DNA of 64,000 bases, from NCBI RefSeq assembly GCF_021491355.1, contig NZ_JAKENF010000003.1:682001-746000 (forward strand), given 5' to 3'. Numbering within the stretch: the first letter of the stretch is position 1; every line of letters starts with the position of its first letter. Positions 3,853 through 64,000 of this stretch are shown here, piece after piece. Position numbers and translations under genes: made by a program. Origin of the DNA: Alitabrizicola rongguiensis. Lineage in GTDB: Bacteria > Pseudomonadota > Alphaproteobacteria > Rhodobacterales > Rhodobacteraceae. The notes beneath the pieces are model-generated. The model worked only from the letters and a program-made list of their open reading frames with translations. It did no database searches and was not told the origin of the DNA.

Positions 3853-3881
3853 TTGTTAGCGCTAACAGACAATGCTATATA
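3853..3881 (+). promoter_or_regulatory. edd promoter with overlapping CceR-like operator
   Basis: A -35 box TTGTTA (3853-3858), a 17-base spacer and a -10 box TATATA (3876-3881) give a good sigma-70-type promoter about 40 bases before edd. A perfect palindrome TGTTAGCGCTAACA (3854-3867) covers the -35 box and part of the spacer, the expected position for a repressor. This sequence is like the operator described for CceR, a LacI-family regulator of central carbon genes in Rhodobacter sphaeroides. The assignment rests on recall of that motif. Confidence 0.7.
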
Positions 3882-3921: not shown

Positions 3922-5727
3922 ATGACACTCGACAGAACCATTGCCCGGGTCACCGACAGGATCCGCGCCCGGTCGGAAGACCGTCGGGGTCTCTATCTCG
4001 AGCGTCTGCGGAAGTCGGTCTCTGACGGGCCGGTCCGAGCGCATCTTGCCTGCGGCAACCAGGCCCATGCCTTTGCGGCGATGGGCGAGGACAAGGAGGC
4101 GCTCGCCGAGGGGCGCAACCCTAACATTGGTATCGTCACCGCCTACAACGACATGCTGTCGGCCCACCAACCGTTCGAAAGCTATCCGGGCCAGATCCGC
4201 GCCGCCGCGCGGCGGGCCGGGGCGACGGCCCAGGTTGCGGGCGGCGTCCCTGCGATGTGCGATGGAGTGACACAGGGCCAGCCCGGCATGGAGTTGTCGC
4301 TTTTCTCTCGCGACGTGATCGCGCTCGCCGCTGGCGTGGCGATGAGCCACAACTGCTTCGATGCCGCGCTTTACCTGGGCGTCTGCGACAAGATCGTGCC
4401 GGGCCTCATCATCGCTGCCGCGACATTTGGTCATGTGCCGAGCGTGTTCGTGCCCGCGGGGCCGATGACCTCTGGCCTGCCGAACGACGAGAAGTCCAGG
4501 ATCCGCAACCAGTTCGCCACGGGGGAGGTCGGCCGCGACGCACTGATGGCGGCCGAGATGGCCAGCTATCACGGTCCCGGCACCTGCACCTTCTACGGCA
4601 CCGCCAACACCAACCAGATGCTGATGGAGTTCATGGGGTTGCACCTGCCCGGTGCCAGTTTCGTCAATCCCGGCACCGAACTTCGTTCCGCCCTGACCGA
4701 CGCCGCCGTCGAACGCGCAGCCTCGATCACCGCGCTTGGCAATGATTTCAGGCCCGTGGGTGAAATCCTCGACGAACGTGCCTTCGTCAATGGCATTGTC
4801 GGGCTGATGGCGACGGGTGGCTCGACCAACCTCGTGCTGCACCTGCCGGCGATGGCGCGGGCAGCGGGCGTGATCCTCGACCTGCAGGATTTTTCCGATA
4901 TCTCGGACGTGGTGCCGTTGATGGCCAAGGTCTATCCCAATGGACTGGCCGACGTGAACCATTTCCATGCCGCCGGCGGACTTGGCTACATGATCGGCCA
5001 ACTTATTGATGCAGGCCTTCTGCATCCGGATGCACGGACGGTCGCGGGCGATGGTCTCGACCTCTACCGTCAGGAACCGAAGCTCAAGGACGGCAAGCTT
5101 GTCTGGGAAGCGGGCGCCCGCGAAAGCCTCAACGACAAGATCCTGCGCCCCGCCTCGGCCCCGTTCCAGAAATCCGGCGGACTGAAGCAACTGACCGGCA
5201 ATCTTGGCCGGGGCGTCATCAAGGTTTCCGCCGTCGCGCCCGAGCGCCACATCGTCGAGGCGCCCGCCCGGGTTTTCCACGACCAGTCCGAGGTCAAGGC
5301 TGCCTTCAAGTCGGGTCAGTTCACGTCCGATACAGTTGTCGTGGTCCGCTTCCAGGGGCCGCGGGCCAACGGGATGCCGGAACTTCATTCGCTGACGCCG
5401 ATGTTGTCGGTCCTCCAGGATCGCGGGCTCAAGGTGGCGCTGGTGACCGACGGGCGCATGTCCGGCGCCTCGGGCAAGGTGCCTGCCGCAATTCACGTAA
5501 GCCCCGAAGCGGCCGACGGCGGGCCGTTGGCCCGTCTTCGCGACGGCGACATCGTGCGGCTGGATGCCGTGGCCGGAACGCTGACAGTCATGGCCGAGGG
5601 TTTTGACAGCCGCGAGCTGGTTGTTGCCGACCTGTCGGCCAATGGCCACGGGATCGGGCGCGAACTGTTCGCGGCTTTCCGCACCCATGTCGGCCCCGCC
5701 ACCGAGGGCGCGGCCCTCGTCGTCTGA
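3922..5727 (+). CDS. edd: Phosphogluconate dehydratase
   Basis: A 601-residue cytoplasmic [4Fe-4S] dehydratase (IlvD/Edd family) that converts 6-phosphogluconate to 2-keto-3-deoxy-6-phosphogluconate, the first step specific to the Entner-Doudoroff pathway. Recognisable blocks include [18 protein letters not shown] near residue 73, the Cys-containing [14 protein letters not shown] near 113, and [16 protein letters not shown] near 145. Length matches Edd (about 603) better than IlvD. The ATG follows a CGGAGA ribosome site. The KDPG aldolase gene follows after 32 bases, forming the classic edd-eda pair, with a CceR-like operator in the promoter. Confidence 0.95.
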
Positions 5728-5759: not shown

Positions 5760-6395
5760 ATGACCCCCGCCGAGCAAAGCCAGGCCGCGCTTGAAATCTG
5801 CCAACTTGCCCCGGTGGTGCCGGTGCTGGTGATCGACGAGTTGGCCCATGCACGACCGCTGGCAGAAGCCCTGGTCAAGGGCGGGTTGCCGGCGCTGGAA
5901 GTCACGCTTCGGACCCCGGTCGCGCTGGACGCGATCCGCGCCATGGCCGAGGTGGCCGGCGGGATTGTTGGCGCCGGAACGCTTCTTACCCCGGCGGACG
6001 TGAAAGCGGCAAAGAAGGCCGGTGCGCAGTTCGGTGTTTCTCCCGGCGCGACCGAGCGTCTGGTCGCCGCCTGTGAGGACGAGGGCCTGCCCCTGCTCGC
6101 TGGCGCGGTGACGGCCAGCGAGGTGATGGCGCTTCTGGAACGCGGCTATTCCATGCTCAAGTTCTTTCCGGCCGAAACCTCTGGCGGGGCGGCGGCAGTG
6201 AAGGCCCTCGGTGGACCGATGCCGCAGGTCAGCTTCTGCCCGACCGGCGGCATCAGCCTGAAGAACGCGCGCGACTATCTGATCCAGAAGAATGTGGTCT
6301 GCGTGGGGGGCAGTTGGGTCGCGCCGAAGGAGGCCATGGCCAAGGGCGACTGGGCAGAGATCACCCGGCTGGCTGCCGAGGCGGCGGCACTCTGA
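5760..6395 (+). CDS. eda: KHG/KDPG aldolase
   Basis: A 211-residue class I aldolase that splits 2-keto-3-deoxy-6-phosphogluconate into pyruvate and glyceraldehyde-3-phosphate. The Schiff-base Lys is in SMLKFFPAE (Lys134) and the catalytic Glu in LEVTLRT (Glu47); the phosphate loop is in the CPTGGIS segment. Length is standard. A strong AAGGAG ribosome site precedes the ATG. It lies 32 bases after edd and should be co-transcribed from the same promoter. The 68 bases after it show no clear terminator. Confidence 0.95.
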   Translation: MTPAEQSQAALEICQLAPVVPVLVIDELAHARPLAEALVKGGLPALEVTLRTPVALDAIRAMAEVAGGIVGAGTLLTPADVKAAKKAGAQFGVSPGATERLVAACEDEGLPLLAGAVTASEVMALLERGYSMLKFFPAETSGGAAAVKALGGPMPQVSFCPTGGISLKNARDYLIQKNVVCVGGSWVAPKEAMAKGDWAEITRLAAEAAAL

Positions 6396-61919: not shown

Positions 61920-61952
61920 CGTTAGCGCTACCACCGCAAGTTTGCGCTAACA
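61920..61952. promoter_or_regulatory. Two CceR-like operator boxes before the first gap gene
   Basis: CGTTAGCGCTACCA (61920-61933) and AGTTTGCGCTAACA (61939-61952) each match the perfect edd palindrome TGTTAGCGCTAACA at 12 of 14 positions. Their centres are 19 bases apart. The boxes lie 96-128 bases before the start codon. No convincing promoter could be placed between them and the gene. Confidence 0.6.
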
Positions 61953-62047: not shown

Positions 62048-63052
62048 ATGACGATCACCGTCGGAATCAACGGCTTCGGCCGGATCGGCCGCTGCACGCT
62101 GGCCCATATCACCGAAGCCGCCCGGAACGACGTCCAGGTCGTCGCGATCAATGCGACCGGTCCGGTGGAGACCAACGCCCACCTGCTGAAATACGATAGC
62201 GTCCATGGCCGCTTCCCCGGCACCGTCAAGGTCGTGAACGGGGCGCTTGACCTCGGCCGTGGCCCGATCCGCGTAATGTCGACCTACAACCCGGACGAGC
62301 TCGACTGGGAAGGCGTGGATGTCGTGCTGGAATGCACCGGCAAGTTCAACGATCGCGACAAGGCCGCGGTCCACCTGACCCGCGGCGCCAAGCGCGTTCT
62401 GGTCTCGGCGCCGGCCAAGCGCGCCGACAAGACCGTGGTCTATGGCGTGAACCACCGCCAGCTTCTGCCCGAGCATCTGGTCGTCTCGAACGGCTCCTGC
62501 ACCACGAACTGCCTCGCGCCGCTCGCCAAGGTGCTGAACGACGCGATCGGCATCGAGTCGGGGATCATGACCACGATCCACAGCTATACCGGCGACCAGC
62601 CGACGCTCGACCGCCGCCACAAGGACCTCTACCGCGCCCGCGCTGCCGCCATGGCGATGATCCCGACCTCGACCGGCGCGGCCAAGGCCCTGGGCGAAGT
62701 GCTGCCGGAACTGGCGGGCAAGCTTGACGGGACCGCGATCCGTGTGCCGACCCCGAACGTCAGCGCCGTGGACCTGACCTTCGTCGCGTCCAAGGACGTA
62801 ACGGTCGAGAACGTGAACGAAATCGTGCGCGAAGCCGCCGCCGGTTACATGGGCATGGTTCTGGCCTATGACCCCGAGCCGAAAGTCTCGATCGACTTCA
62901 ATCACACCACGCATTCGTCTATCTTCGCCCCTGACCAGACCAAGGTCGTCGGCAAGCGCACCGTGCGCGTGCTGGCCTGGTATGACAACGAATGGGGCTT
63001 CTCCTGCCGGATGGCCGATGTGGCCGGCGCCCTGGGGCGGCTCGCAAGCTGA
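62048..63052 (+). CDS. gap: Type I glyceraldehyde-3-phosphate dehydrogenase, likely NADP-accepting
   Basis: A 334-residue GAPDH. The NAD-fold start is [13 protein letters not shown], the catalytic Cys is in SNGSCTTNCLAP, followed by [27 protein letters not shown] and WYDNEWGFSCRM. At residue 36, where NAD-specific enzymes have Asp (AIND), this protein has Ala (AINATG), as in the anabolic GapB-type enzymes that accept NADP. It therefore may serve gluconeogenesis. Two CceR-like boxes lie upstream. A second gap gene with Asp at this position follows after 275 bases. Confidence 0.93.
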   Translation: MTITVGINGFGRIGRCTLAHITEAARNDVQVVAINATGPVETNAHLLKYDSVHGRFPGTVKVVNGALDLGRGPIRVMSTYNPDELDWEGVDVVLECTGKFNDRDKAAVHLTRGAKRVLVSAPAKRADKTVVYGVNHRQLLPEHLVVSNGSCTTNCLAPLAKVLNDAIGIESGIMTTIHSYTGDQPTLDRRHKDLYRARAAAMAMIPTSTGAAKALGEVLPELAGKLDGTAIRVPTPNVSAVDLTFVASKDVTVENVNEIVREAAAGYMGMVLAYDPEPKVSIDFNHTTHSSIFAPDQTKVVGKRTVRVLAWYDNEWGFSCRMADVAGALGRLAS

Positions 63053-63081: not shown

Positions 63082-63225
63082 ATGACCGACCGTTTGGCAC
63101 TTGTTCTGGGCGGGCTCGTCCTCGGCCTGATTGTCCTTGACCTCGGCGTCCTTCACACGGGCGCAACGCTTTTCCTTGCGCGAAAGTTCGCGGACCTCGT
63201 GGAATATCTTTCCTTCTGGCGTTAA
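63082..63225 (+). CDS. Small membrane protein between the two gap genes
   Basis: A 47-residue protein: MTDRLALVLGGLVLGLIVLD starts a membrane helix (residues 5-21), followed by a tail with FLARKFADLVEYLSFWR. The combination of one helix and an aromatic amphipathic end looks conserved-protein-like rather than random. It overlaps a GC-rich hairpin just after the first gap gene and has no strong ribosome site. I recall similar short proteins next to gap in relatives. The function is unknown. Confidence 0.68.
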   Translation: MTDRLALVLGGLVLGLIVLDLGVLHTGATLFLARKFADLVEYLSFWR

Positions 63226-63266: not shown

Positions 63267-63280
63267 TGTTAGCGCTATCA
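63267..63280. promoter_or_regulatory. CceR-like operator before the second gap gene
   Basis: TGTTAGCGCTATCA matches the perfect edd palindrome at 13 of 14 positions. It lies 47 bases before the start codon, a distance suited to promoter control. Confidence 0.65.
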
Positions 63281-63327: not shown

Positions 63328-64000
63328 ATGGCGGTCAAGGTTGCTATCAACGGCTTCGGCCGGATCGGGCGGAACATCCTGCGCGCGATCATCGAATCCG
63401 GGCGGACAGATATCGAAGTCATTGCGATCAATGACCTTGGCCCGGTCGAGACCAATGCCCACTTGCTGCGCTTCGACTCGGTCCATGGTCGCTTCCCGGC
63501 CGAGGTAACCACCGGCCCCGACTGGATCGATGTCGGCCGTGGCCCGATGCAGGTCACCGCGCTGAAGAATCCCGCGGACCTTCCGTGGAGCAATGTCGAC
63601 ATCGTTCTGGAATGCACCGGCATCTTCACCTCGAAGGAGAAATGCCTGCCCCATCTCGAGAACGGCTCGAAGCGCGTGCTGATCTCGGCCCCGGGCGATG
63701 GCGCGGACAAGACCATCGTCTATGGCGTGAACCACAATGTCCTGACCAAGGACGACATCGTGGTCTCGAACGCCTCCTGCACCACGAACTGCCTGTCACC
63801 GGTCGCCAAGGTGCTGCATGACACGATCGGCATCGAGAAGGGGATGATGACCACCATCCACTCCTATACCGGCGACCAGCCGACGCTCGACACGATGCAC
63901 AAGGATCTCTACCGCGCCCGCGCAGCGGCACTCAGCATGATCCCGACTTCGACGGGGGCCGCCAAGGCCGTGGGCCTTGTCCTGCCGGACCTCAAGGGCA
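63328..64000 (+). CDS. gap: Type I glyceraldehyde-3-phosphate dehydrogenase, NAD type (3' end beyond the window)
   Basis: The first 224 codons of a second GAPDH; the gene runs off the end. It starts [16 protein letters not shown] and has Asp36 in [12 protein letters not shown], the mark of NAD preference, the catalytic Cys in [12 protein letters not shown] and [18 protein letters not shown]. It is clearly homologous to the preceding gap gene but differs at many positions, so it is not a recent copy. An AAGGAGAG site precedes the ATG and a CceR-like box lies upstream. It is probably the glycolytic/Entner-Doudoroff enzyme. Confidence 0.94.

Follow-up and report, generated by a model that had tools for sequence, protein, structure and literature searches.

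Predicted CceR/GapR operators at edd-eda and the gap genes of Alitabrizicola rongguiensis, with a small DUF1127-like gene as a candidate further target

The LacI-family central-carbon regulator of Rhodobacteraceae has been described as GapR (RSP_1663; Ravcheev 2014, PMC4052901) and as CceR in Rhodobacter sphaeroides and Paracoccus denitrificans (PMC11323563, PMC4344238, PMC5507952). Its motif is given as GTT N6-8 AAC (PMC4344238), and Imam 2015 is cited for 6-phosphogluconate as the effector of CceR (PMC4419725, PMC5507952). For CceR of P. denitrificans, repression of glycolytic and activation of gluconeogenic enzymes were reported (PMC11323563). FruR/Cra (Enterobacteria), HexR (gamma/beta), PckR (Rhizobiales) and GluR (Caulobacter) are also global switches of glycolysis and gluconeogenesis, but they are described as non-orthologous to CceR and have other motifs or effectors (PMC4052901, PMC4419725).

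The palindromic boxes of A. rongguiensis are very probably operators of this regulator, and the finding is largely known already as a clean instance of the published GapR/CceR regulon (Ravcheev 2014; Imam 2015). With GapR, as presented in the available text of PMC4052901, the system shares the LacI family, the palindromic motif, the target list, a regulator gene unlinked to its targets and autoregulation. With CceR of R. sphaeroides and P. denitrificans it has the target set and the GTT-N8-AAC geometry in common (PMC11323563, PMC4344238, PMC5507952), and the effector proposed there, 6-phosphogluconate (PMC5507952), is the same in our model for A. rongguiensis. It differs in that sdh, pdh and ATP synthase, which have been reported as CceR targets, were absent from the motif places of the genome at ≤2 mismatches.

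Four boxes were found by pattern search in the window, i.e. the whole stretch of 64 kb that was analysed (C7:682001-746000), before edd and two gap genes and with the places and mismatches that the first-pass annotation had given. The perfect palindrome TGTTAGCGCTAACA (3854..3867), a predicted operator of CceR type, is located 54 bp 5' of the edd ATG. A tandem pair precedes gap1, namely CGTTAGCGCTACCA (61920..61933) at 114 bp and AGTTTGCGCTAACA (61939..61952) at 95 bp 5' of the ATG, 19 bp apart, and the predicted operator TGTTAGCGCTATCA (63267..63280) lies 47 bp 5' of the gap2 ATG. All four are intergenic and were assigned to neither strand. Compared with TGTTAGCGCTAACA, the gap1 boxes have two mismatches each and the gap2 box has one, while the edd box has none. 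At ≤3 mismatches, TGTTAGCGCTAACA gave 4 matches in the window against 0.54 expected; the maximum in 100 dinucleotide shuffles of the window was 3, and 0/100 reached 4. With a PWM of 20 columns built from sites of other genomes, the same boxes took the top four places of the window with 27.8 (edd), 23.8, 17.8 and 11.6 bits, followed by 6.8 bits for the next best. The earlier count of four boxes in 60 kb understates the cluster, because a fifth box is located 3 kb beyond the end of the window and zwf has one at about 47 kb to the other side, ahead of the edd box.

The first target, edd (phosphogluconate dehydratase; 3922..5727, + strand), matched TIGR01196 with 955 bits (cut-off 708) and is accompanied by eda (KDPG aldolase; 5760..6395, + strand), which matched TIGR01182 with 249 bits, over the cut-off. 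A possible edd promoter, TTGTTA-17-TATATA (3853..3881, + strand), would share its -35 with the operator. It fits by eye, but a consensus scan scored no promoter of sigma-70 type at edd or gap1, and the proposed overlap with the -35 box was thus not confirmed. Repression at edd through such an overlap is what we infer.

Both gap genes code for type I GAPDHs with 408 and 420 bits on TIGR01534 (cut-off 367). The protein of gap1 (62048..63052, + strand) is without the NAD-type Asp (INA), while that of gap2 (63328..64000, + strand, running on beyond the window end) has it (IND); this is the site that sets the NAD preference of GAPDH. A small ORF of 47 residues, probably membrane-spanning, lies between the two genes (window 63082-63225). 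For gap genes without the Asp (n=6), the best box was 75-103 bp from the ATG, and a box pair spaced by 19-20 bp was present in 4/6 of them (gap1 and 3/5 others) versus 1/26 of the Asp type. Asp-type gap genes had a box in 19/26 cases, at a median of 48 bp from the ATG. The comparison of the two kinds of gap gene gave p 0.001, for a small sample with genes partly from the same genomes. Gemmobacter aquatilis (L404) has tandem boxes before gap1 and one box before gap2. The tandem boxes farther upstream suggest a regulatory mode of gap1 that differs from gap2, and activation of gap1 through them would be a guess. The box pair at gap genes without the NAD-type Asp is apparently a new detail that is not in the sources consulted; tandem gap1 boxes were not found in the available text of the GapR regulon description of Ravcheev 2014 (PMC4052901).

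In the genome of 4.20 Mb, 13 motif places were found at ≤2 mismatches, compared with 7 for the reversed pattern as control, and 6 compared with 0 at ≤1 mismatch. Eight of the 13 fit the published regulon or the regulator itself: edd, zwf, fba, gap1 (twice), gap2, tal and cceR. The genome-wide scan, which the first-pass annotation had called for, therefore yielded places that are not random relative to carbon genes, and zwf, edd-eda, gap, fba and tal were found as predicted regulon targets. The box of zwf-pgl-pgi is located about 30 bp before zwf, the fba with a box is of class I and stands beside pgk, and the tal with a box has a best NCBIfam model of the fsa/talC type. One place, before a small ORF past gap2, offers a new candidate target. 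The other four, at acs (L030), ccaF1-ccsR (L031), an xylF-like gene and phaC, showed no fit to the regulon; the latter two (L028 and L032; names read from the sequence) are inside coding sequence, while acs was also compared with NCBIfam models. The published CceR target pckA has a weak box, TGGTTGCGCTAACG (12.2 bits), >200 bp upstream (L391).

Two of these places were rejected as CceR targets. The first precedes a second DUF1127 gene (C6:646112, TGTTTGCCCTAACA) of a ccaF1-ccsR-type operon, in which Rfam CcsR1 was detected with 81.6 bits, over the gathering score (L031 2887-2972), next to three more copies below it. At first sight this box seemed to be conserved (26/64 unlinked loci at ≥13 bits). 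Within 21 aligned upstream regions, its TGTT half falls on the conserved CCCCATNTT, which is retained where the palindrome is lost and which resembles an RpoH -10. The box is not counted as a CceR box because of this and because ccaF1-ccsR is reported to depend on RpoHI/HII (PMC10253847); an RpoH-type promoter explains it better (see also PMC8307010). The upstream region of the ccaF1-like operon (L031 2613-3304, 21 genomes) has the form ATTGTGCA..TGCAGCAT...CCCCATNTT and is conserved beyond what a promoter needs. The second is acs (L030 2765-2778, C5:700264), which is not supported as a target: its own box reaches 16.9 bits and is poorly conserved, with boxes of ≥12.9 bits in only 5/29 loci including its own and at varying distances.

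Among the ten LacI-type genes of the genome, one of CceR type is present on another contig than the window (C8:285971-286996). Only this putative CceR/GapR gene codes for SEMTVSR in the recognition helix, a stretch similar to that of gluconate repressors, and only it has a box at ≤2 mismatches in its own promoter. Its protein has the HTH and sugar-binding domains of the LacI family (PF00356 with 62.7 bits and PF00532 with 79.1 bits, both over the cut-off). Of the NCBIfam models, the gluconate repressors GntR and IdnR come closest, with scores that fall well short of the cut-offs. Counterparts with about 76-88% identity occur, for instance, in Tabrizicola sp. TH137, G. aquatilis, Rhodobacter capsulatus SP108 (79%) and Thioclava pacifica. 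With a PWM trained on 48 sites from relatives, two of them cceR promoters, a box was found before the regulator gene in 39/80 named records and in none with column-shuffled PWMs. The 41/80 named records without a box at this strict threshold speak against the assignment to CceR; for GapR, autoregulation was reported in 5/13 genomes (PMC4052901, available text). The 48 sites form an even palindrome GTT-N8-AAC, with the CG centre at 97% and GTT/AAC at 93-98%.

The regulator and the motif occur together across the family. Of 120 family genomes that are ≥95% complete and each represent a different genus, 102 carry a regulator ortholog with ≥63% identity and 18 have no match or one of ≤52%; other LacI proteins reach ≤57%, leaving a gap below the ortholog group. 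At ≤1 mismatch, the motif was found 239 times versus 76 for the control in the 102 genomes with the regulator, and 10 times versus 15 in the 18 that lack the regulator (rank test p 9e-6, a statistic that ignores shared ancestry). The enrichment is thus limited to genomes bearing the regulator, with the exception of G458, which is without the regulator and has 4 motif places versus 0 for the control, none of them at a known target. The earlier assignment of the motif to a CceR regulon is borne out by the carbon-gene targets, the CceR-type LacI gene and an enrichment that follows the regulator across genera. A class-wide search (385 genomes, 57 of them with a match) was too diluted, the own family being represented by only 5 genomes. 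Outside the family (f51, f13, f156), a motif excess was seen, for example, in G267 (7 versus 2), G244 (3 versus 0) and G175 (5 versus 2).

In relatives, targets were assessed at the 69 non-own sites among the matches listed, a set that covers some of the genomes. Of the sites in this set, 58/69 stand before cceR, the small ORF or genes of the known regulon type, namely zwf (17), edd (15), gap (13), fba (3), scrK-like (3), pycA (2), cceR (2), maeB, eno and the small ORF (1 each). The scrK-like genes stand for fructokinase, two of the three being without an NCBIfam match at 1e-10 and named by likeness to the third. The other 11 of the 69 sites had none of these genes downstream, 6 of them being from genomes without the regulator. 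Again among the matches listed, sites could be assigned in 57/62 cases with the regulator versus 1/7 without it. In four genomes of named organisms, 10/13 sites were before edd, zwf, fba, gap2 or cceR. A DMT/EamA-type transporter-like gene (by eye) directly follows a box in L095 and L101 and may be a further target; the one in L095 gave no model match at 1e-10.

It is improbable that the boxes belong to another gluconate-type LacI/GntR regulator of similar specificity instead of CceR. Such a regulator would agree with the likeness of SEMTVSR to gluconate repressors, with GntR and IdnR as nearest NCBIfam models and with LacI paralogs of 33-57% identity in many family genomes; yet SEMTVSR is confined to the one of ten LacI genes whose own promoter bears a box, the motif excess occurs in genomes with a high-identity ortholog and not in those without it, and the targets found include no gene for gluconate uptake. 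A chance origin of the four palindromes, or a role as general promoter elements, as the 7 places of the reversed control at ≤2 mismatches might suggest, can practically be dismissed in view of the excess over expectation in the window, the 6 versus 0 places in the genome at ≤1 mismatch and the conservation of the boxes ahead of the same genes across many genera.

The fifth box (C7:749056-749069) has letters identical to the gap2 box TGTTAGCGCTATCA and lies 82 bp upstream of an ORF of 54 residues (C7:749152-749313), with an antiporter-like gene (after gap2) on one side and coaD on the other; box and ORF together span C7:749056-749316 (L027 4057-4317). The protein scored 12.3 bits on PF06568, below the gathering score of 23.3, and is for this reason only named DUF1127-like. 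In an alignment of the protein, 12/14 members matched PF06568 at E≤10 (best 6.5e-6), and a profile search gave a match in 77/120 genomes. Among 43 loci with linkage to gap/coaD or a high score, an upstream box of ≥13 bits was present in 29, of which 16 had ≥17.7 bits; these are 29/42 loci with the regulator and 0/1 without it. The CG centre was kept in 28/29 boxes, and in some of them both halves were altered in concert (e.g. TGTTTGCGCAAACA). The box of G. aquatilis is 74 bp before the small ORF. Against the small gene as a target stand the 14/43 loci without a box and scores mostly below those of edd or zwf. Random windows, which serve as the usable control, reached ≥13 bits in 0/1357 cases in unlinked and 16/1048 in linked loci, the latter 16 probably being the gap promoters of the same loci. 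The control upstream of other genes gave 18/177 at 13 bits and is contaminated by intergenic regions shared with the small genes, judging from its four top rows; in the shuffled-PWM control, one shuffle was nearly like the true PWM and gave up to 13 matches.

In a literature search covering sources other than Imam 2015, DUF1127 was not found together with CceR or with gluconate; DUF1127 and LacI do occur together in one paper. The small gene was also not found in the available text of the GapR regulon description (Ravcheev 2014, PMC4052901). From the sequences compared, it seems to be under the CceR switch in many relatives, apparently a new detail.

Around the observed boxes, targets, regulator gene and co-occurrence, a model can be outlined in which binding, effector and sign of regulation are inferred or taken from the literature. 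Without 6-phosphogluconate, CceR would be bound to the palindromes. Where the box is about 30-54 bp from the start, as at edd-eda, zwf-pgl-pgi and gap2, it would most likely block transcription. Sugar would raise the level of 6-phosphogluconate, the substrate of Edd, upon which CceR would be released and the Entner-Doudoroff genes expressed. The gap1 tandem pair 95-114 bp upstream would have a different role, possibly the activation of a gluconeogenic GAPDH. The joint reading, that CceR controls the small DUF1127-like gene and that tandem and single operators control gap1 and gap2 in opposite directions, has an even chance of being right.

With the family-wide co-occurrence test, a known regulon is firmly assigned to a genome that had been unstudied. 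The extension offered is a conserved small-protein gene beside gap2 that is seemingly switched together with central carbon metabolism. For other DUF1127 proteins, binding of RNA by CcaF1 (PMC10253847) and binding to the kinase PhoR (PMC12501420) were reported. If the extension is true, the carbon switch would directly determine the amount of a small protein with a possible function in binding RNA or a sensor kinase, and carbon status could be connected with post-transcriptional or phosphate control.
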